Origin: Candidatus Binatia bacterium
GTDB taxonomy: Bacteria; Desulfobacterota; Binatia; UBA9968; JAJDTQ01
Direction: 5' to 3'
Length of the DNA stretch: 48,931 nt
Assembly (NCBI GenBank): GCA_022824205.1
Contig: JAJEAI010000155.1
Span: forward strand, 1-48,931
Below the pieces are notes generated by a model that saw only the letters and a list, made by a program, of their open reading frames with translations, ran no database searches and was not told the DNA's origin. Positions 1-33,053 of this stretch are shown one piece after another (the stretch's first letter is position 1; each line of letters starts with the position of its first letter). The position numbers and the translations under genes are program-made.

Positions 1-118
1 CCCCAGTGGCCCCTACCACGTGAGGAGGACCCCGGGTCAAGCCCCGGGGTGACGTAACGCAGCCGACGGCGAAAAGGACAAGCAGATTCATGACGTTTTA
101 TACGGGACAGGACACTAG
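1..118. repeat. Right arm of a CTAG-ended MITE-like element (cut by window edge)
   Basis: This stretch is nearly identical to 32412-32528, with only a few mismatches over about 118 bases. There it forms the right part of a complete 210-bp element with terminal inverted repeats. It contains the palindrome around CCCGGG/CCCCGGGG (about 30-52) and ends with GGGACAGGACACTAG. The terminal CTAG (115-118) supplies the TAG stop codon of the neighbouring minus-strand bicupin gene. The left arm lies outside the window. Confidence 0.85.
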
Positions 119-1170
119 TCCTCCTCGCTGTAGAGGTTGAGGCTTTCCAGCACCGGGCGGTCGGTGACGGAGAACAGGATCGCGGGCTCGGTCCGGGAGT
201 CGTTGCGGAAGTGGTGCCAGTGCCACGAGGGGACCACGAAGCAGTCCTGCTCGGTCCAGGCCATGGGGGTGCCGTTGTCCTTGTCGCGGCTGGCCACGGT
301 GGCGCCGGCGCCTTGCATCACGTGGTAGATGGTGCTGCTGGTGTGGCGGTGAGGGCGGGTGGATTCGCCCGGCCGCAGCCACTGTACGCGGCAGTCGATG
401 GTGGGCATGGTGGGGCCGCCGGTGACGGGGTTGCTGTATTGCAGGAGAACGCCGTCGTGGGGGTCGCCGTCGGTGGATTCCGCCAGTTGTTCCAGGACGG
501 GCAGGGTCTCGCTCCACTTGTAGGTGTAGGGGAGGGCGCGGGTGCCGGGACTCTCGGTGAGCGGCCGCACCGTGCCCAGGCGGTGGCGGCTGTAGCCTTC
601 GGACTTCGTCACGGGCTGGGCCGGTCCCTCGCCGTAGTTCTCGTGGAAGTTGGCGTCCAGGTGGTTCATGAGGTGCACGTCGAGGACGTCGAGCCACACG
701 ATGTTGCGCTCGCCCTGGTTGTAGTGGTCGTGCCAGGTCCAGCTCGGCGTGAGCACCAGGTCGCCCGGCTCCATGTGCATCTCCTCGCCCTCCACAGTGG
801 TGTAGCCGGTGCCGTCCCCTTCCACCACGAAGCGCAGGGCCGCCGCGGTGTGGCGGTGGCACTCGGCGCGTTCTCCCGGCTTCACGAGCTGGACGGACAT
901 CTGGATGGTGCGGGTGGTGGACTTGAAGGCGGTGAGCCCGGGGTTCACCAGTTGCACGGTGCGGCGCTTGGCGGCTTCGTCGATGTGGCCGAGCTTGACG
1001 ACCTCGCCGGACTCCATGAGACAGGAGTAGATCACCGGCCAGCGCCACAGGTGCGCGCGCAGCTCCGGCGTGGGCTGGCGCTGCTGCCAGTGCCCCGCCA
1101 GGGAATTCTCCGCCATGATGCGGTGCAGCTCATCGAGCCGCGGATTCTCGGTGTTGACGGCTTCACTCAT
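115..1170 (-). CDS. Bicupin, gentisate 1,2-dioxygenase-like protein
   Basis: A 351-residue two-cupin protein of the gentisate/1-hydroxy-2-naphthoate/salicylate dioxygenase superfamily, which uses Fe(II) and O2 to open aromatic rings without a second catechol hydroxyl. The first cupin has CHRHTAAALRFVVEG (His105, His107) and WHDH (147-149); the second has PHRHTSSTIYHV (His274, His276) and WHWHH (317-320). Both metal triads therefore look intact. The start was set at 1170 because AAGGAGA lies just upstream; a longer open frame to 1257 has no such signal. The stop codon TAG falls in the terminal CTAG of a mobile repeat, so the extreme C-terminus may have been altered by that insertion. The family is secure; the substrate is unknown and could be a hydroxy-acid other than gentisate. 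Confidence 0.88.
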   Translation of the reverse strand: MSEAVNTENPRLDELHRIMAENSLAGHWQQRQPTPELRAHLWRWPVIYSCLMESGEVVKLGHIDEAAKRRTVQLVNPGLTAFKSTTRTIQMSVQLVKPGERAECHRHTAAALRFVVEGDGTGYTTVEGEEMHMEPGDLVLTPSWTWHDHYNQGERNIVWLDVLDVHLMNHLDANFHENYGEGPAQPVTKSEGYSRHRLGTVRPLTESPGTRALPYTYKWSETLPVLEQLAESTDGDPHDGVLLQYSNPVTGGPTMPTIDCRVQWLRPGESTRPHRHTSSTIYHVMQGAGATVASRDKDNGTPMAWTEQDCFVVPSWHWHHFRNDSRTEPAILFSVTDRPVLESLNLYSEED

Positions 1171-1207
1171 GATTGTCTCCTTGTGCGTCCGTTGGACTCC
1201 CGCTTTC

Positions 1208-1468
1208 CAGGCTGTGTCGAGATTCGACTCGGATAAGAGATGGCACCCACGTCCCAACCGTTGTTCCCGGGGAAAGCGGCTGTTCCGAACTCATGAAGCA
1301 GAAACCCCTCGAATCGTCATTCCCGCGAAAGCGGGAATCCAGGCGGGGTGAGGCGGGGAACCGCTCGGTTGTCCCCGCCCCACCCCTGGATTCCCGCTTT
1401 CGCGGGAATGACGGTTCGGGGCGTTGGCGGCAATTCCCAGCCGGGTGGAGTTTTGACACAGCCTGTTG
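1208..1468. repeat. Composite palindromic repeat between two genes
   Basis: The 355-base gap upstream of the first bicupin is mostly repeat. An inverted pair of a 27-bp unit (1317-1343 and 1385-1411; core ATTCCCGCGAAAGCGGGAAT) can fold into nested hairpins. It is bracketed by a second inverted motif, CAGGCTGTGTC at 1208-1218 and GACACAGCCTG at about 1454-1464. The same two motifs recur together at 3601-3684 and 33054-33277. The core matches the ATTCCC-N8-GGGAAT pattern known for neisserial dRS3 repeats; that is resemblance only. I see no gene here. Confidence 0.8.
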
Positions 1469-7321: not shown

Positions 7322-7604
7322 GGACACTAGGAGCCCTATCGGATTTATCAAGAATCGACTGAGAGGAAGGGAATTGGGTCCATTTCAAGGAAAGTCAAGA
7401 CTTCCGAGGCGCCAACTCCCCGAGTCGTCATTGATATGGCAGTTACGGAATCCCGCGACACCCCAATGAGTCATTCCCGCGGAAGCGGGAATCCAGGCGG
7501 GGTGGGGCCGGGCAATGAGGCCGCCACACCCCCCACCCCTGGATTCCCGCTTGCGCGGGAATGACGACTCGGGGGATTGATAAACCCGACAGACTCCTAG
7601 TGTC
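7322..7604. repeat. MITE-like element with CACTAGGAG inverted ends, containing a composite palindrome (copy B)
   Basis: The ends 7322-7351 (GGACACTAGGAGCCCTATCG, then GATTTATCAA) and 7577-7604 (TTGATAAACCCGACAGACTC, then CTAGTGTC) are inverted copies over about 26 bases. Inside lies a reversed copy of the composite palindrome: CGAGTCGTCATTGATATGG (about 7421), GTTACGGAATCCCGCGACAC, and an inverted pair at 7470-7496 and 7541-7565. This copy lacks about 30 bases of the AT-rich tail seen in the other copies. The right-end CTAG provides the TAG stop of the LuxR-type gene. No gene lies within. Confidence 0.75.
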
Positions 7605-8217
7605 GCGTCGCTCTCCGTACGGTGCTCGCGTCCTCTTGCGGGTCATCCGTGGCCAAAGCAGCGCCGCCGGATGCGCTTTCGGTCGCAGAGGCGCCGATTC
7701 CCGCCGTCCCCTCGCGCAGTTCATCTTCGGTGATGGGCATGAGCAACTGATGGACGATCTCGGCGACGAATTCCGCCCGACCGCTGACTCCGGCTTTCGC
7801 ATAGAGAGCGCTCGCCTGCAATCGGGTCGTGTTTTCCTTGACCCCGCGCAAATCCGCGATTTCCGCGAAGCGGAAACCCTTGATGATGAGCCACGCGACT
7901 TCTTTTTCGCTACGGGTGAGCCGCCAAGCGTCCATTTGCTCTTCGATGCCGGCGGCGAGTTCCCCGGCGAGCATCCTGTTTCGATTCTGCTCCTGCTCCA
8001 GACGCGCGCGCAGGCCGACGAGATCCCTCAGGTTGACGACGAGGATCCACGAAACCGCTGCAAAAACGAAGGTTTCGATGACAAAATGGGGTGAGCCGAA
8101 CTCGCCCTCGAATAACGCGTCCACGACGAGGTCGTAGGCGAAGAACACCATCGCCAACGCCAGCATCGCCAACGCCAGTATTCGTCGCCTTGGCACTACG
8201 TGGAGCAAGTCGTTCAC
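7597..8217 (-). CDS. Membrane-anchored LuxR-family transcriptional regulator
   Basis: A 206-residue protein with two N-terminal membrane helices (about 10-35, RILALAMLALAMVFFAY; about 45-66, FVIETFVFAAVSWILVV), a linking coiled-coil-like stretch rich in Glu/Arg/Gln, and a LuxR-type helix-turn-helix at about 103-160 (LTRSEKEVAWLIIKGFRFAE, then ENTTRLQASALYAKAGVSG). There is no receiver domain, so it probably senses at the membrane. The start is GTG at 8217 with a weak AAAGAGA upstream. It is divergent from the autotransporter gene, a common arrangement for a local regulator; that link is inference. The last TAG lies inside the end of a MITE-like repeat, and the C-terminal 30 residues are low-complexity Ala/Ser/Glu. 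Confidence 0.8.
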   Translation of the reverse strand: MNDLLHVVPRRRILALAMLALAMVFFAYDLVVDALFEGEFGSPHFVIETFVFAAVSWILVVNLRDLVGLRARLEQEQNRNRMLAGELAAGIEEQMDAWRLTRSEKEVAWLIIKGFRFAEIADLRGVKENTTRLQASALYAKAGVSGRAEFVAEIVHQLLMPITEDELREGTAGIGASATESASGGAALATDDPQEDASTVRRATRH

Positions 8218-22439: not shown

Positions 22440-22443
22440 AGAA

Positions 22444-22540
22444 CGTGTGGTGTCTGGTTAATTCGCAGCATAATATGCGGAGGATTTTTCGTCGTCGGCA
22501 AGGCGCGATGACCCGTAGGGGCGACCCGCGGTCGCCCCAG
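22444..22540 (+). repeat. Left arm of a CTAG-family MITE-like element
   Basis: GTGTGGTGTCTGGTTAATTC, then GCAGCATAATATGCGGAGGA and TTTTTCGTCGTCGGCAAGG, matches in layout the left arm of the complete element at 32319-32414. Its outermost 30 bases are an inverted copy of 24993-25022. It ends in the shared palindrome GTAGGGGCGACCCGCGGTCG (22515-22538) and then breaks off directly into an integrase tail. The expected right arm is absent here. Confidence 0.75.
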
Positions 22541-22708
22541 CGGCTCCTCGGTCATACGAAGGTGGAGACCACCGCGCGGTACGCGCACCTGGCGCGGTAA
22601 TCGGTGCGCGAGTCCGCCGTCCGCATATCCGACAGCATTGCCGCCGACATCCTCAAGGAATACCAGGTGGACGGCGGGGACGAAGCCCCGGCCGGGACGG
22701 CGACCTGA
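22541..22708 (+). pseudogene. Tyrosine recombinase (integrase) C-terminal relic
   Basis: The reading frame beginning at 22541 gives LLGHTKVETTARYAHLAR, the hallmark C-terminal box of tyrosine recombinases (LGH histidine and the catalytic Tyr in RYAHL, codon 22580-22582). A TAA at 22598-22600 then interrupts it, but the same frame continues with SVRESAVRISDSIAADIL to TGA 22706, as in full-length phage-type integrases. Everything N-terminal of the box, including the first catalytic Arg, is missing; the sequence changes abruptly into a MITE arm. It is therefore a dead remnant of an integrated element. Confidence 0.85.
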
Positions 22709-22734
22709 TCCCTTTCCCTGCCGGAGGCCGTGGG

Positions 22735-23598
22735 ATGCGCCAACTCGACCTGTTCCAGGACAGTCCCCGCACGATCGCGCTGAACGTGTTGCGTGAAGCC
22801 GTCCTGGCGCACAATGCCCCCGGAGCCGGCATCGCCCTTGAACGGCTCCTGAACCTTGCTCCTGGCCATGAGAGGGCAAGCGACGCCGGGACACTCATTG
22901 CGGTCCTGGAGGCGCCCGCGCCCGAGGGACCCGACGAGGGAATCGAATGGCTTCACGCCCTGGAGCGGGAATGGCGCCCGGCCGCGATACGCTTGCTCGG
23001 GACCGGCGACGGCCGGGATTTCCTGGCGCCGGTGTGGCGCTGCATCGGCGGGGCGCTCGGCCCGCGGCCCTTCGATCCCGTCCATCCCGAACGCCACGCG
23101 AGTTGGGCCTACCAGCAAGGCCAGGACTGGGAGAACCTGAAACGCTCGGTGCTGGGCGTGCCGGAGCACGAAACGACGCCGGTATTGCTCACGCGGCTGG
23201 CGGAAGCGGAATACCGGTTGGGCGACCGTACGCGGGCCATCGGACACTGGTTCGAACTCTGCTGGCGAGCCCCCGCGGCTTTCCGGGGGCTGGTGGACGC
23301 CCCCGGCTTCCCTGACGCGGATGTTGCCGCGGCATGGGGCGCCGCGCAGGATCAGGACGTGGAGCCGGAGCTGTCGCCCGAATGGTTCCCGGCCTGGATG
23401 CTGCTCCAGGAGCCCTCGCTGGCCGCCGGACTCGCGCCCTGTGGCGAAAAGCACGGACCGCAGCGAGCCTTCGACGTGGTCCGCGGTCTATTGACCGACA
23501 GTGCAAGCGACGCACACCGCATTGCGCTGCGCCGTGATCTCAAAACGCTTCATCCAGCCTTGTTGGCCGGCTACCTCGATCGGTTCGCCAGATACTGA
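22735..23598 (+). CDS. Hypothetical protein downstream of integrase relic
   Basis: A 287-residue protein I do not recognise. It begins MRQLDLFQDSPRTIALNVLR and is predicted mainly alpha-helical, with paired-helix stretches that resemble a degenerate tetratricopeptide-like array (LTRLAEAEYRLGDRTRAIGH and WFELCWRAPAAFRGLVDAP). There is no signal peptide or membrane segment. GGAGG precedes ATG 22735. The frame is intact while its neighbours on both sides are broken, so it may still be expressed. Its position next to an integrase tail suggests it is cargo of a former integrative element. Confidence 0.7.
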   Translation: MRQLDLFQDSPRTIALNVLREAVLAHNAPGAGIALERLLNLAPGHERASDAGTLIAVLEAPAPEGPDEGIEWLHALEREWRPAAIRLLGTGDGRDFLAPVWRCIGGALGPRPFDPVHPERHASWAYQQGQDWENLKRSVLGVPEHETTPVLLTRLAEAEYRLGDRTRAIGHWFELCWRAPAAFRGLVDAPGFPDADVAAAWGAAQDQDVEPELSPEWFPAWMLLQEPSLAAGLAPCGEKHGPQRAFDVVRGLLTDSASDAHRIALRRDLKTLHPALLAGYLDRFARY

Positions 23599-23665
23599 CT
23601 CGCCGCTACAGGACCACCTCACTCCAGCAGGACGATCAGGGGCGGACTTTTCGGCTAGAGCGGCG

Positions 23666-23695
23666 TTGACCAGATAGAGTTGCCTTAAGTATAGT
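23666..23695 (+). promoter_or_regulatory. Sigma-70-type promoter upstream of SIR2-like relic
   Basis: TTGACC (23666-23671), an 18-base spacer and TATAGT (23690-23695). This is a good match placed about 20-25 bases before the ATG at 23719, in a locally AT-richer stretch. It probably drove the original SIR2-like gene and might still transcribe the chimeric remnant and the two small genes after it. Confidence 0.5.
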
Positions 23696-23718
23696 ACTCG
23701 CTAGTGAGGACGCGCGTC

Positions 23719-24431
23719 ATGGCCGCAAAAACTACCTACAAATATCGCTTCAAGGTGGGAGTGCGGGCAACGCGGCGAACGAATACGGCTTCCTCCTTTC
23801 GGAACTGAAGAGAGCGTTCCTCGACCGGCTCCATGAAGCCCGGAAGGGGGACGTCCATCGCGAGGAACTGAAACGGTTCGCGAACTACTGCGACGCCAAT
23901 GGCTGCTGCTGCGTCACTTTCAACTACGACGACTTCCTCGACGAGGCGCTGATGCACACCGGCAGATGGAATCCGCATTGGGGATACGGGTTCTTCTGCC
24001 TGTCCTCACTGGACATCGGCGCCAGTTCCGGCGCACTGGAAACACGTTCGATTCTCCGACTGTTGAAGCTCCACGGGTCGATTAACTGGCGGCCGAAACT
24101 CGGTTACGCGAGCCCGGTCGCGAAGTCGATGAAACCTACGTCGGCGGGAAAGAGAAGAACAAGCACCAGTCCAAGAAATGTGTCCGTCAAGAGCGGACAC
24201 GTAACCGTCAGGGACATCCGAGACCTGCGCGGAACGCTGAACGACAAGAAGGACGTTGGTGGGGTATTCGTGACACGCCAACCGGCAACCCGCCCGATGC
24301 GTGAATTCGTGAACACGTCCGAGGTTGTCCAACTGGAACTGTCGCCAACGTTCCCCAAGCTCCAGATTTTGACGCTGGACGAGATTCTGAACGGCGAGCG
24401 GCCCGTACTGCCATACGCCTACGCCGCGTAA
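23719..24431 (+). pseudogene. Chimeric relic: SIR2-like / IS1595-type transposase / DNA methyltransferase fragments
   Basis: Three unrelated fragments are joined. The first (23719 to about 24110) is a SIR2-like domain: EYGFLLSELKRAFLDRL, FNYDDFLDEAL and RLLKLHGSINW in one frame. Its N-terminal nucleotide-binding Gly motif is disrupted, with ATG 23719 in a different frame. The second (24116-24178, another frame) reads EVDETYVGGKEKNKHQSKK, a signature of IS1595-type DDE transposases. The third (about 24180-24431) returns to the first frame and matches the C-terminus of DNA methyltransferases (VKSGHVTVRDIRDLRGTL, then PKLQILTLDEILNGE). From ATG 23952 the joined frame is open for 159 residues, so a fusion peptide could be made, but no single family explains it. 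Confidence 0.75.
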
Positions 24432-24449
24432 CTCGAAGGATGTGCACTC

Positions 24450-24734
24450 ATGCGTTTCGTCGCGACGTTCCTCTTGATACTTATTCTGGCAGGTTGCGCG
24501 GCTCCAGACAGCTCACTCCGGGACGCAGTACCTCATGATGAGCTATCCACGCAAGAACTGTCGAAGCACGAGAAAGAGCCGTTGCCGGAGCCCCGCACCA
24601 TCACCATGCCATCCAGCGAGTACCAGCCGAGCAAGGCTGAACTGGACGCCGAGCACGACATGCCCGGAGCGGACCCGGAGACGATGCGCCGCGCGTTCTT
24701 CCGGCCCTACCGCGTCAAGACCGAGGAGTGCTGA
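24450..24734 (+). CDS. Small putative lipoprotein
   Basis: A 94-residue protein with a signal peptide and lipobox, FLLILILAGCAAPDS (lipidated Cys about 16), followed by a hydrophilic Glu/Pro-rich tail. GAAGGA precedes ATG 24450. The family is not recognised. It follows the chimeric relic by 18 bases and may be cargo of the degraded element. Confidence 0.65.
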   Translation: MRFVATFLLILILAGCAAPDSSLRDAVPHDELSTQELSKHEKEPLPEPRTITMPSSEYQPSKAELDAEHDMPGADPETMRRAFFRPYRVKTEEC

Positions 24735-24740
24735 ACATGA

Positions 24741-24899
24741 ATGATCGAGATCATCCTAGACATTGCAGCGCGGCTGCTTGCCGCACAAGATGATGATCTT
24801 ATGCCAGACGATGCTGTCAGCAATTCCTTGAATATGGCGAGGCGCTTAGTCGAGCAGTGGCAAGAGCAGTACCCCGACGCCAAGTTGACCCGGCGTTGA
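24741..24899 (+). CDS. Small hypothetical protein (52 aa)
   Basis: Starts ATG 24741, a few bases after the lipoprotein stop, with GAGGAG inside the end of that gene as a possible ribosome-binding site. It encodes an amphipathic, acidic, helical protein (MIEIILDIAARLLAAQDDDL ... VEQWQEQYPDAKLTRR). No family recognised. Codon use is less GC-rich than in neighbouring metabolic genes, consistent with foreign origin. Confidence 0.45.
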   Translation: MIEIILDIAARLLAAQDDDLMPDDAVSNSLNMARRLVEQWQEQYPDAKLTRR

Positions 24900-24974
24900 T
24901 TGTGACTATTGGCTATAATTCCCAAGCGATGGGTTCAAAGTATCGTGATAAATAAGCCAAAAAATCAAACTCAA

Positions 24975-25025
24975 TGCAGAAAAGACCCGCAGATCATGCT
25001 GCGAATTAACCGGACACCACACTAG
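24975..25025 (-). repeat. Right-hand inverted end of the CTAG-family element
   Basis: Read on the minus strand, 25025-24990 is CTAGTGTGGTGTCCGGTTAA, then TTCGCAGCATGATCTGC. This is an inverted copy of 22444-22475. Together they bracket the 2.6-kb relic region. The final G of CTAG is the first base of the GTG start of the FAD oxidoreductase gene. The flanking 24900-24990 is AT-rich and shows no gene. Confidence 0.75.
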
Positions 25026-26164
25026 TGCCCGGGCAGGACACCAGGATCGTCCTCCTCGGCGTCGGCCACACCAACGCCCACGTCCTCGACATGTGGCGCC
25101 GGGAGCCCATCGCGGGCGCCCGGTTGGTGTGCGTCTCGAGCTTTGCTGAGGCCACCTATTCCGGCATGCTGCCCGGCACCCTGTCGGGCCAGTACCCGCC
25201 CGGCACCCTGGAGATCGACCTGCGGAGCCTGGCCCAGGCGGCCCGGGCCGAGTTGGTGGTGGAGCCGGCCGCGGGCGTGGACGTGGAGGCCGGCACCGTC
25301 CAGTTCGAGAAGCACGAGTCCCTGCCGTTCGACATCCTCTCCGTCGGCGCCGGCTCCGTGCCCAACCGTGCCGGCATGGACGCCGCCCCCGGGGCGTGGG
25401 TCCCCATCAAGCCCATGCAGACGTTCCTCATCCGCCTGTACGAACGGCTCCAGGAACTGGCGCGGCAGGATCGCGAAGAGCTGCGCGTACTGGTCATCGG
25501 CGGCGGCGTCGGCGGCATCGAGATCAGCTTCTGCCTGCCGGCCTACCTGCGCCGCGTGCTGGGCGAGGTGGGCCACGCCATCACGATCGTCGACGCGGGA
25601 GAACGCATCGGCGGCGGCCTGTCGCCACGGGCACTGCCCCGGGCGGAGGCGCTGCTGGAGGCGCGCGGCGTGGAAGTCATCACGGGCACCCGAGTCACCC
25701 GTGTCGAAGCCCGTGAAACAGTGTGCGCCGACGGCCGCCGCATCCCCGCGGACCTCGTGATCCTGGCCGCGGGCGCCGCGCCGCCTCCCGTGCTGGAGAA
25801 CACCGCCTTGCCGAAGGATCCCAAGGGTTTCCTCCTGACCCGCGAGACCCTCCAGTCCACCGGCTCGGAGAATGTCTTCGCGGTGGGGGACAGCGGCACC
25901 ATGGCGGATGTCGCCGTCCCCAAGGCCGGCGTCTACGCCGTGCGCCAGGGCCCGGCCCTGTGGCACAACATCGGCGCGCTGGCGCGGGGCGAGCCCTTGT
26001 CCCCCTACGAGCCGCAGCACGATTTCCTGCGGCTTCTCAACACCGGCGACGGCAAGGCGCTCATGGACTACAAGGGATGGGCCGTCCACGCCCGCTGGTG
26101 CTGGCGCTTCAAGGACTACCTCGACAGCCGCTTCATGGCGCGGTTCCGGGTGGTCCGCCGGTGA
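25025..26164 (+). CDS. FAD-dependent pyridine nucleotide-disulfide oxidoreductase (NDH-2/SelD-linked type)
   Basis: A 379-residue two-dinucleotide-fold flavoprotein: FAD-binding RIVLLGVGHTNAHVLD at the N-terminus, a central NAD(P) motif VLVIGGGVGGIEISFCL, and the C-terminal FAD motif SENVFAVGDSG. The N-terminal pattern, with YSGMLPGTLSGQY, resembles proteins fused or linked to selenide-water dikinase (TIGR03169-like) and NDH-2 enzymes. No SelD is present here. There is no redox CxxC. The start GTG 25025 has no ribosome-binding site and its first base belongs to a mobile repeat, so the native promoter and possibly the native start have been replaced. Function is likely quinone or small-molecule reduction. 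Confidence 0.82.
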   Translation: MPGQDTRIVLLGVGHTNAHVLDMWRREPIAGARLVCVSSFAEATYSGMLPGTLSGQYPPGTLEIDLRSLAQAARAELVVEPAAGVDVEAGTVQFEKHESLPFDILSVGAGSVPNRAGMDAAPGAWVPIKPMQTFLIRLYERLQELARQDREELRVLVIGGGVGGIEISFCLPAYLRRVLGEVGHAITIVDAGERIGGGLSPRALPRAEALLEARGVEVITGTRVTRVEARETVCADGRRIPADLVILAAGAAPPPVLENTALPKDPKGFLLTRETLQSTGSENVFAVGDSGTMADVAVPKAGVYAVRQGPALWHNIGALARGEPLSPYEPQHDFLRLLNTGDGKALMDYKGWAVHARWCWRFKDYLDSRFMARFRVVRR

Positions 26165-27349: not shown

Positions 27350-27482
27350 CTAGTGTCGCGTCCCGCAAATAAGTGGCATAATTTGCTGGTCTTTTTCGCC
27401 CTCGGCTGCGTTATGTCACCCCGGGCTTGACCCGGGGTCTTCCTCGCGTGGTGCACGCCACATGGGGCGACCGCGGGTGGCC
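27350..27482 (-). repeat. Diverged arm of a CTAG-family MITE-like element
   Basis: Starts CTAGTGTCGCGTCCCGCAAA, then CATAATTTGCTGGTCTTTTT, CGCCCTCGGCTGCGTTATGT and CACCCCGGGCTTGACCCGGG. This matches block by block the right arm of the complete element (32528 down to 32412), with more substitutions. It ends in a degraded GGGGCGACC palindrome. The remaining gap to 27773 shows no gene; weak frames there have no support. Confidence 0.7.
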
Positions 27483-30013: not shown

Positions 30014-31060
30014 ATGCCCGAATCCTACACGGAGCCGCTGGGACAGTCCAACGTCTTTCTGGATTTTCAGGAAACGCTGTCCCGTGCGGCCAAGGTCGAT
30101 CGTCCGATCCTGTTGATCGGTGAACGCGGTACCGGCAAGGAGCTGGCCGCGGCCAAGCTGCACTACCTGTCACAGCGTTGGCGGGGGCCGCTCGTGGCCC
30201 TGAACTGCGCGGCGTTGGCGCCGGCGCTGCTGGAGTCGGAGCTGTTCGGCCACGAGGAGGGCGCTTTCACCGGCGCGCATCAACGGCGCACCGGACGGTT
30301 CGAGGCGGCAACGGAGGGGACCCTTTTCCTGGATGAGATCGCTCAGATCCCCACGGAGGTCCAGGAGAAGATCCTTCGGGTGGTGGAGTACGGCAGTTTC
30401 GAAAGGGTGGGGTCTTCCCGGCCCGTTCAAGTGGACGCGAGAATCATCGGCGCGACCAACGCGGACCTGCCCGCGCTGGCCCGTCAGGGTCGTTTCAAGC
30501 TCGATCTCCTCGACAGGTTGTCGTTCGACGTCCTCTTTGTACCGCCCTTGCGGCGTCGCGCAGAGGACATCCCGTTGCTGGCCAACCACTTTGCCGCGCG
30601 CATGGCGCATGAGCTGGGCTGGGAAGCTCTCCCGCGCTTCAGCCGCCGCGCGCTGGCGCAAATGGAACGCTACCCCTGGCCCGGCAACGTTCGCGAGCTC
30701 AGGAACGTGGTGGAGCGCGCGGTGTATCGCTCCGATACGGCTACCGTCGACGAGTTGGTCTTCGATCCCTTTGTCTCGCCATTCGGCACGGGCGCGAGCG
30801 ACGCAAGCGAGGCGCCGGTGCCGGCACCCGTGCCAGCCCTCCGGGCTCGTGCCCCCGAATTGCCGGACAGGTCCCCCGAAGGGCCGGACCGGTCCCTCGA
30901 AGAAGCGGTGAGGGAGCTGGAGATACGAATGATCCGCGAGAGCCTGGCGGAGGCCAGGTACAACCAGCGCCAGGCGGCAAGGGCGCTGGGCCTGACCTAC
31001 CATCAGTTCCGCGGCCGGTGGCGAAAGTATCAGGACGAACTGGCCGCCGAGGACGACTGA
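30014..31060 (+). CDS. pspF: PspF, sigma-54-dependent activator of psp operon
   Basis: A 348-residue enhancer-binding protein with no N-terminal receiver domain, as in PspF. AAA+ domain: Walker A GERGTGKE, the sigma-54-contacting loop ESELFGHEEGAFTGAHQRRT, Walker B GTLFLDEIAQ, arginine fingers in LRRRAEDIPLLANHF and PWPGNVRELRNVVERAVYR. The C-terminal Fis-type helix-turn-helix is in YNQRQAARALGLTYHQFRGR. ATG 30014 follows GGAGGGG; a GTG/ATG frame beginning 29984 is not favoured. Its 3' end overlaps the 3' end of the convergent MFS gene by 31 bases. A Pro/Ala linker precedes the DNA-binding domain. Confidence 0.95.
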   Translation: MPESYTEPLGQSNVFLDFQETLSRAAKVDRPILLIGERGTGKELAAAKLHYLSQRWRGPLVALNCAALAPALLESELFGHEEGAFTGAHQRRTGRFEAATEGTLFLDEIAQIPTEVQEKILRVVEYGSFERVGSSRPVQVDARIIGATNADLPALARQGRFKLDLLDRLSFDVLFVPPLRRRAEDIPLLANHFAARMAHELGWEALPRFSRRALAQMERYPWPGNVRELRNVVERAVYRSDTATVDELVFDPFVSPFGTGASDASEAPVPAPVPALRARAPELPDRSPEGPDRSLEEAVRELEIRMIRESLAEARYNQRQAARALGLTYHQFRGRWRKYQDELAAEDD

Positions 31061-32310
31061 GCCGGTGGACGGATTCCCAGGCACACCGCCGCGCCCGTGG
31101 AGGCCATGACCAGACACGCCAGGAACATTCCCTCGTAGGAGCCGGTGGCGTCGTGGACGAGACCTCCCAGGAAGGCGCCCAAGGCACCGCCGGTGTGGTG
31201 CACCCAGAGGATGGCGCCGGTGATCAGGCCGATGTTGCGGACCCCGAAGTAGTCTCCGGTCATGGCCGCGGCCAACGGCGCCGTTGCCATGAGCGTAAAG
31301 CCCATCAACAGCGCGGCGGCGAATATGGCGGGTTCCGTGGACGAGAACGTCAGCAACGCGTAGCAGACCATCCGGAACAGGAACATGGCGGACAGCGGCA
31401 GGCCGTGTCCGAGCTTTTCCGTGAGCGCCGGGAACGCGAGCACGCCGGCCAGACTGAACAGCCCGGCGAGCCCCTGGATGTTGGAGGCGTGCTGGCTCGT
31501 CAGGCCGGCGTCGGTGGCGAAGGGGATGAACTGGGTCACGAAGAAGAAATCCTGGAAGCCGCACAGGCCGTAGGCCAGCGCGATGAAAAGGAAGGTCCGC
31601 GAGAGGAACGCCTCCCGCGGCGCGAGCTCCGCGGCGGGGAGGAGGCGCCGGGCGCGGCCGAGTTTGCCGCCGCGTTCGTAGGGCGACAGGCCCATTTCGG
31701 CGGGTTCCTTCTTCATCAGCGCCAGCGCCACCGGCACCACCACCACGGAAACCAGGATGCCCAGGCCGACCCACGAACCGCGCCAGCCGAAGCGCGCCTG
31801 GGACCAGGCCAGGGCAGGGATGACGGCGAAGTGCCCGAAGGACGTGCCCGTGACCGCGACGCCGCCGATGAGGCCGCGCAGGCTCCGGAACCAGCGGGAG
31901 ACCGTGGACGACACCACGCCGATGGTGATCCCCGATACGCCCACCGCGGTGACGACGCCGTAGTAGAAGTAGAGCTCCGGGATGGAGTTGGTGCGTGAAG
32001 TGAGTAAAATGCCCGTGGAAGCCAGCAGCGCCGAGACGGAAAAGAGCAGGCGCGGCCCGTAACGGTCCAGCACCCTCCCCGCCATCATCTGGGCGAAGCC
32101 GAACACCAGCATGTTGAGGGTGTAGGCGAAGGTGATGGCGCCCCGGTCCCAGCCGAACTCCGCGGCCAGCGGTTTCACCAGCACACCGAATGAGAAACGC
32201 ACGCCGCCGTCCACCAGCAGGATGAGGAAGCCTCCGAGGAGGATGATCCAGCCGTAGAAGAACGTGGACTGGGAACCGGCCGGGGCCGGCGTAGGCGGCG
32301 GGGTTTGCAC
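31030..32310 (-). CDS. MFS transporter, monocarboxylate/oxalate-formate antiporter-like
   Basis: A 426-residue major facilitator with 12 predicted membrane helices. The signature loop DRYGPRLLFSVSALLASTG follows helix 2, and a central loop lies at about 200-230 (KEPAEMGLSPYERGGKLGRA). The FFYGWIILLGGFLILLVDGG start and RFSFGVLVKPLAAEFGWDRG are typical of MCT/OFA-type carboxylate carriers. Start GTG 32310 has no clear ribosome-binding site; a MITE-like element begins nine bases further upstream and has probably displaced the native leader. The substrate is likely a small organic acid, by family. Confidence 0.85.
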   Translation of the reverse strand: MQTPPPTPAPAGSQSTFFYGWIILLGGFLILLVDGGVRFSFGVLVKPLAAEFGWDRGAITFAYTLNMLVFGFAQMMAGRVLDRYGPRLLFSVSALLASTGILLTSRTNSIPELYFYYGVVTAVGVSGITIGVVSSTVSRWFRSLRGLIGGVAVTGTSFGHFAVIPALAWSQARFGWRGSWVGLGILVSVVVVPVALALMKKEPAEMGLSPYERGGKLGRARRLLPAAELAPREAFLSRTFLFIALAYGLCGFQDFFFVTQFIPFATDAGLTSQHASNIQGLAGLFSLAGVLAFPALTEKLGHGLPLSAMFLFRMVCYALLTFSSTEPAIFAAALLMGFTLMATAPLAAAMTGDYFGVRNIGLITGAILWVHHTGGALGAFLGGLVHDATGSYEGMFLACLVMASTGAAVCLGIRPPAQSSSAASSS

Positions 32311-32318
32311 CAGATGAA

Positions 32319-32528
32319 CTAGTGTCCTGTCCCGTATAAAACGTCGTGAAGACGCGCGGGGCTTTTTGTCGCCGGCAAGGAGCGACGACTGTAGGGGCGA
32401 CCCGCGGTCGCCCCAGTGGCCCCTACCACGCGAGGATGACCCCGGGTCAAGCCCCGGGGTGACGTAACGCAGCCGACGGCGAAAAGGACAAGCAGATTCA
32501 TGACGTTTTATACGGGACAGGACGCTAG
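32319..32528. mobile_element. Complete CTAG-ended MITE-like element (210 bp)
   Basis: Terminal inverted repeats: left CTAGTGTCCTGTCCCGTATA, then AAACGTCGTGAA; right (reverse) CTAGCGTCCTGTCCCGTATA, then AAACGTCATGAA. That is 32 bases with two mismatches. The interior holds two palindromes, GTAGGGGCGACCCGCGGTCG (32391-32414) and the GACCCCGGGTC/CCCCGGGGT block (32439-32462). It has no coding capacity beyond a 60-codon frame that is just the element itself. CTAG at both ends could be terminus or target duplication; IS5-type elements are known to prefer such 4-bp targets, so a parental transposase of that kind is one guess. The right CTAG gives the TAG stop of the MOSC gene. Confidence 0.85.
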
Positions 32529-32974
32529 AGAACGGTGATCTCGTCGCCGGGTCGGATGACGCCGCCCTGTACCACCAGCGCGCAGATGCCGCTCTTGCCC
32601 ATCAGGGCCCGGGTCATGCCCGGCGCGGTGATGGACTGGATGTAGGCGCAAGGGGGGCGCGGCCGGTCGAACGCCAACACGGCCTCGCCGACGCGAAAGG
32701 CGTGCCCCGTCAGGTCGTCCAGGCGGGTGTCGCGGGTGACGATGTTGCGCCGGTGCTCGCCGTTGAGCACCTGGAGGCCCGCGGCGGCGATTTCCTCCAA
32801 GTCCTCGGCTTCGATCAGGGTCACCTGGCACTCGTCCCAGCCGCTGTAGTAACCTGTTGACTCGCAGTAGCGGTCACCCTTGAGCCCCATGCTGGCGAGC
32901 GCCTCGGCCTCGTCCACCTTGCGCATGTGCGCGCTGCCTTCCGGCGCGATGTAGATTGCGTGTACCGTACCCAT
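32525..32974 (-). CDS. MOSC domain protein
   Basis: A 149-residue stand-alone MOSC (molybdenum cofactor sulfurase C-terminal) domain, similar to YiiM-like proteins that handle sulfur on molybdenum cofactor. Visible are GDRYCESTGYYSG, QVTLIEAEDLEEIAAAGL, RRNIVTRDTRLDDLTGHAFR and the conserved cysteine in RPRPPCAYIQ. ATG 32974 with GGGAG upstream; a longer frame to 33043 lacks support. The TAG stop lies in the MITE end, so the C-terminus may be shortened or changed. A molybdenum hydroxylase subunit is encoded about 6 kb away. Confidence 0.87.
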   Translation of the reverse strand: MGTVHAIYIAPEGSAHMRKVDEAEALASMGLKGDRYCESTGYYSGWDECQVTLIEAEDLEEIAAAGLQVLNGEHRRNIVTRDTRLDDLTGHAFRVGEAVLAFDRPRPPCAYIQSITAPGMTRALMGKSGICALVVQGGVIRPGDEITVL

Positions 32975-33053
32975 GGTGCTCCCGTGGCGCTCGTTTTCGG
33001 AGACTTTGTCGGAGACTATATGCAGCGGGTTGTGGGCCGTCAACGCATCGGGT

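Follow-up and report, generated by a model that had tools for sequence, protein, structure and literature searches.

The locus and its features

The window, by which we mean the whole stretch of 48,931 nucleotides that was analysed, is one contig (C108) of a 4.82-Mb draft genome assembled in 209 contigs (G000 in our set). Between an MFS transporter gene and a MOSC-domain gene lies a complete element of 210 bp whose 32-bp inverted ends carry two mismatches, exactly as the initial annotation had described it. The features of the window on which the analysis rests are the following.

1 to 118, no strand: second family-A copy, right part only, cut at the contig end; 97% identical to positions 93-210 of the 210-bp element; its CTAG (115-118) provides the stop of the cupin gene
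115 to 1257, minus strand: double-cupin gene ending at the element CTAG (..SEED); relatives end ..SEED, ..SEEDA or ..SEEDAS
7327 to 7600, no strand: IS1182-type MITE with CTAGGAG...TCGG ends and CTAG at both edges; empty site in four relatives
7597 to 8217, minus strand: gene of unknown family ending ..ATRH on CACTAG; same end in the element-free relatives L292 and L293 (G003 and G005), and ..VMRH, also on CACTAG without element, in L295 (G008)
22444 to 25025, no strand: single insertion, about 2.58 kb long, bounded by the ends of a family-B MITE (22444-22540 and 24975-25025), part of whose core is replaced by foreign DNA; flanks contiguous in L283-L285
25025 to 26164, plus strand: pyridine-nucleotide-disulphide oxidoreductase gene, its GTG start overlapping the G of the right-hand CTAG; compared with relatives G005 and G006
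27350 to 27482, no strand: MITE of family C, a sister family, that keeps an intact CTAG at 27350 and has lost its other end
31030 to 32310, minus strand: MFS transporter gene, start 8 bp from the element edge; the matching GTG start is recognisable in element-free L095 (G006)
32319 to 32528, no strand: complete family-A element of 210 bp, an IS630-type MITE that separates the MFS gene from the MOSC gene; each end has CTAG and no ORF lies within it; empty site in L095
32319 to 32350, plus strand: left terminal inverted repeat including CTAG, 94% identical to the opposite end over 32 bp
32497 to 32528, minus strand: right terminal inverted repeat including CTAG; its TAG serves as the MOSC stop codon (end comparison and relatives)
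32525 to 33043, minus strand: MOSC-domain gene, its stop TAG lying in the terminal CTAG; C-terminus ..ITVL, against ..IAVL in element-free relatives

The initial annotation had correctly placed three TAG stops (115, 7597 and 32525), the GTG start at 25025 and the start of the MFS gene (32310). Named relatives retrieved with the MOSC gene are metagenome assemblies that carry the label Candidatus Binatia or Deltaproteobacteria, the Binatia being placed taxonomically in the phylum Candidatus Binatota.

The MOSC protein ends at the same position (..VL) in five relatives. Its stop reads CTC TAG in G006, where no element is present, and CTC TGA in three others. In the orthologue of G001 (L098, OY282432.1), CTC TAG is followed by a different element end, CTAGTGTGGCGTCC, which is a second and apparently independent use of that stop. 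An RNA role for the 32319-32528 element was considered and rejected: the sequence forms a single long hairpin (-117.9 kcal/mol, z -7.9), but any inverted-repeat element folds in this way and the fold is not evidence of function.

Other elements of the window

The relatives that had been listed for the 210-bp element were partly retained. The copy at 1-118 belongs to the same family (family A) and that at 27350-27482 to a sister family, whereas 22444-22540 and 24975-25025, given as separate elements, bound a single insertion. The sequence as far as window position 22443/22444 runs straight on into that from about 25022 to 25046 in G003, G005 and G006, and the flanks at 22443 and 25022 are contiguous in L285 (G006). 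The left CTAG of this insertion is now without its TA and reads CGTGTGG. A family-B MITE was apparently split here by about 2.4 kb of foreign DNA, parts of which recur in contigs of the same genome and of two others (G000:C107, G006:C145 and G002:C58). The foreign middle includes an ORF region of 287 residues that also occurs elsewhere in the genus, a weakly Mrr-like ORF and what we take, from our own reading of the sequence, to be the C-terminus of a tyrosine integrase.

The separate element reported near 7322-7604 is real and could be delimited to 7327-7600, a CTAG-flanked insertion absent from four relatives. Its empty site shows a single CTAG in L295 (G008) and L297 (G004), against two in the window.

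Families, ends and distribution

A search of the whole genome with the family-A terminal repeat, as the initial annotation had proposed, retrieved 24 matches with at most three mismatches and none in the control. Seven further near-full-length copies of family A, at 92-97% identity, and many partial copies are present in the genome. Sister families share a common core and differ in their ends (CTAGTGTCCTGTCCCGTATAAAACG, CTAGTGTGGTGTCTGGTTAATTCGC, CTAGTGTCGCGTCCCGCAAATAAG and CTAGTGTTGTGTCTCACAAACAGG). The 24 complete copies that were read measure 124-317 bp, mostly 187-212 bp, and have no coding capacity. When the general pattern of CTAG-ended termini (CTAGNGTNNNGTC) was searched, 137 occurrences were obtained in the 4.82-Mb genome and 15 for the reversed control. 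Among 58 related genomes, the nine congeners have 22-97 such termini each and the others are near the control level; CTAG-ended termini are therefore numerous in only one genus of Candidatus Binatota.

The CTAG itself is a rare tetranucleotide in this genome. In 449 kb, 84 occurrences were seen, against 1415 expected from base composition (about 17-fold more) and 397 from a Markov model. The window holds only 13 CTAGs, yet seven of them are element edges, and because the motif is so rare chance can be excluded for the CTAG edges. An intact CTAG precedes 77 of about 90 family ends, and most of the others are one step away from it. Decayed edges mostly read CCAG or CTGG, that is, a T:A to C:G change (L018, L043, L054, L056, L057, L071 and L092), and this decay may reflect whatever keeps CTAG rare in the window genome.

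Several pairs of elements stand back to back with a single common CTAG (L018 1588, L041 1752, L051 1752 and L081 1540), as if one had used the terminal CTAG of the other as its target. Elements bearing the ends of two different families were also seen (L019, L020, L027, L050 and L079), and L024 and L040 have the left flank in common but not the right one. Hybrid-ended elements were not retained as a new phenomenon, since in G004, a complete genome, the two ends of an element almost always belong together and draft misassembly is as likely; such hybrids are possibly draft-assembly chimeras formed through the common core.

Transposase affiliation

Two autonomous CTAG-ended elements, L015 (G006) and L016 (G009), have GTGTC-type ends and encode IS630 transposases (NF033545, E 5e-74 and 9e-78; Pfam DDE_3). 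At its right end L015 reads GTGTCCTGTCCCATATAA, which is similar to the MITE end GTGTCCTGTCCCGTATAA over the first 17-20 bp and no further. On this comparison of ends, the elements of the 32319-32528 type are most probably non-autonomous MITEs of the IS630 family. A full-length IS630 copy was not found in the window genome, where matches are partial (best E 2e-8) and where a draft may lack repeated IS copies; full-length copies are present in three congeners (G001, G006 and G008). Since the window genome yielded no full-length copy, the identity of the mover is drawn from relatives.

A search for PF01609 transposases found an IS1182 element and not a parent of the GTGTCC-ended MITEs. This element, L009, lies in the same genome, encodes an IS1182 transposase (NF033551, E 2e-105) and has ends (CTAGCAGCCTGTCGG) that resemble those of the 7327-7600 MITE (CTAGGAGTCTGTCGG). 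The likeness covers the first 15-20 bp only, and no direct parent was found for this MITE. The view that these are non-autonomous CTAG-ended elements stood, but not as one family: the copies fall into several, and at least two IS types, IS630 and IS1182-like, drive them.

The IS630 transposase genes of L015 and L016 themselves end on the terminal CTAG. This is not general, as L252 and L254 have stops of their own. Regarding target duplication, the empty-site comparison found CTAG on both edges of filled sites and one CTAG at the corresponding stop in element-free relatives, a pattern in which duplication of TA and of CTAG look the same at a CTAG target. In one element (L037), CTAG on one side faces CTAA on the other, which hints at a TA duplication.

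Placement of insertions and integrity of gene ends

The counts of placement rest on gene calls from our own simple codon-usage caller, trained on Pfam-supported genes, and the background consists of the unoccupied CTAGs in 449 kb of the window genome, in stretches chosen by hand rather than at random and nearly free of elements. Among the element ends with enough flank, 32 of 109 give the stop of the incoming gene. Counted per insertion, 32 of 88 lie on a stop codon and one inside a gene, while the unoccupied CTAGs lie on stops in 20 cases of 77 and inside genes in 17. The depletion within genes is strong (1/88 against 17/77, p = 1.4e-5). Once in-gene sites are set aside, stop placement matches the availability of targets (32/87 insertions against 20/60 unoccupied CTAGs, p = 0.73), as it does for complete elements alone (9/24, p = 0.80). 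The proposal that only such insertions survive is thus supported, the remainder occupying stops at roughly the rate of the available CTAGs. One subset counts against this main explanation: single ends, whose partner end is lost, lie on stops in 23 of 64 cases, against 20 of 120 unoccupied CTAG sides (p = 0.006). Selection that keeps a stop-serving CTAG while the free end decays may explain this excess.

This excess of single ends, together with the third of all insertions that sit exactly on a stop, could also suggest that insertion is actively steered to the 3' ends of genes, by the transposase or by transcription termination, beyond the recognition of CTAG. However, the complete elements and the non-genic insertions match the unoccupied non-genic CTAGs, the majority of insertions are away from stops and several adjoin the CTAG of another element, so we regard such targeting as very unlikely. 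It could also be argued that any CTAG creates a TAG on both strands and that the contacts are an artefact of listing ORFs, as in mechanical ORF lists most of the window's CTAGs do terminate some frame. Pfam, codon usage and conserved orthologues that share the C-terminus nevertheless support the genes ending at 115, 7597 and 32525 well, and we give a chance origin of the contacts practically no credence.

The initial annotation had suggested that gene ends are trimmed or rewritten on insertion, the element supplying a new stop or start and so changing the C- or N-terminus of its neighbour, and the coincidence of element edges with codons at 115, 7597, 25025 and 32525 is what such rewriting would produce. 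Gene ends were compared for the 16 genes of the genome that use an element CTAG as their stop, for which 97 element-free orthologous ends could be read. The last residue is identical in 72 of these, and 93 are within three residues; the stop falls at a CTAG in 42 of the 97, against 24 of 376 stops genome-wide. In relatives lacking the element, the MOSC gene, the 7597 gene and most of these 16 further genes terminate at the same residue, in many cases on a pre-existing CTAG. For 32525 and 7597 this is the outcome that the initial annotation had itself named as refuting its proposal. The C-terminus is unchanged in the empty sites at 7597 and 32525, and the GTG of 25025 is present and in frame in G005 without the element, the CTAG being likewise present without it in G006. 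One of the 16 genes has an end (..YVVMPMRI) that we take, by eye, to be DnaN-like, and another gene, at L039 and outside the 16, presumably ends like NusG (..VELDFIQVERS, also named by eye). At the L082 gene, element ends also occur at the stop codon of the orthologues in G003, G005, G006 and G007 (L135, L155, L179 and L231), and this stop site has thus been occupied repeatedly across the genus.

Two genes are less uniform. The cupin gene at 115 and the L064 gene differ by one to three residues from most relatives, the former being without one or two residues seen in several of them and the latter two or three residues longer. Small shifts of the end may have occurred at both, and at the cupin a change of one or two residues through insertion is possible. 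Rewriting as a general account is nonetheless extremely unlikely, and from the end comparisons the insertions do not appear to trim or rewrite the neighbouring genes.

A proposed mechanism

We hold with high confidence that these are IS630-family MITEs inserting into CTAG, that the stop is regenerated and survival acts as a filter, and that nothing is rewritten. Transposases of the IS630 family (Tc1/mariner type) would mobilise the MITEs in trans, inserting them at the TA of CTAG, so that C-TA-G would become C-TA-[G...C]-TA-G, with CTAG at both edges and a duplication probably of 2 bp (TA) rather than 4 bp. The CTAG is its own reverse complement and TAG is present on both strands; the stop would consequently be regenerated in place whatever the direction of the gene, leaving the protein unchanged. 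With CTAG avoided within genes and in-gene insertions lost, probably through selection, the survivors would be intergenic or exactly on stops. A second CTAG-specific group, with IS1182-like ends, would confer the same stop-keeping property on the 7327-7600 element. The same property of the target would also allow some IS630 transposase genes, such as those of L015 and L016, to finish on the flanking TAG.

A more speculative reading, which we consider rather doubtful, is that CTAG specificity evolved as a safe-harbour strategy, the motif being palindromic, carrying a stop on both strands and being avoided in genes, so that insertions are neutral for coding and in some IS630 copies also end the transposase gene; the IS630 and IS1182-like groups would then have converged on it in one genus.

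As a rule, a gene ending flush with a CTAG-targeting element is probably not truncated, because the target site regenerates the stop, and annotators should not take such edges for rewritten genes. The effect is clean and countable across the genus, the contacts with gene edges following the choice of target and survival rather than rewriting. Since one of its species carries about a hundred insertions and nine have been sequenced, the genus lends itself well to the question whether transposons cost less to carry when their target is rare and contains a stop.

Comparison with known systems

Searches of the open-access literature turned up no description of MITEs of this kind regenerating the stop codons of host genes. 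Short MITEs with comparable targets have been described in other bacteria. The RUP elements of Streptococcus pneumoniae are MITEs of IS630-Spn1 and are likewise short and IS630-derived, with TA-containing targets and many intergenic copies (PMC2229807), but they differ in their ends and host, and placement on host stops is not reported in that review. MITEPsy1 of Pseudomonas syringae is a small MITE that inserts into CTAG or YTAA with duplication of four bases; it was proposed to derive from ISPsy2 and is listed as "IS5?", not IS630 (PMC3189936). For the 7327-7600 MITE, the nearest likeness is to the IS1182 family (NF033551), within the limits of the terminal similarity given above.

The closest precedents concern the target itself. 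According to the work of Tenzen and Ohtsubo (1991), as cited in PMC2170065, IS630 prefers the TA of 5'-CTAG-3' and duplicates TA. The transposase family and the target are the same as here, although the published case, as that citation presents it, is an IS and a composite transposon, while the present elements are MITEs from Candidatus Binatota, non-autonomous and 124-317 bp long. Similarly, IS870 depends on CTAG for the stop codon that ends its ORF1 (Fournier et al., 1993, as cited in PMC6471742), and the transposase genes of L015 and L016 end on the terminal CTAG in the same way. CTAG targeting by IS630 and a CTAG-supplied stop in IS870 are therefore already known, and the elements described here form a real and abundant family of known type; in IS870, as that source describes it, the target completes the element's own gene, whereas here it is the stop of the host gene that is regenerated, on either side of the insertion.
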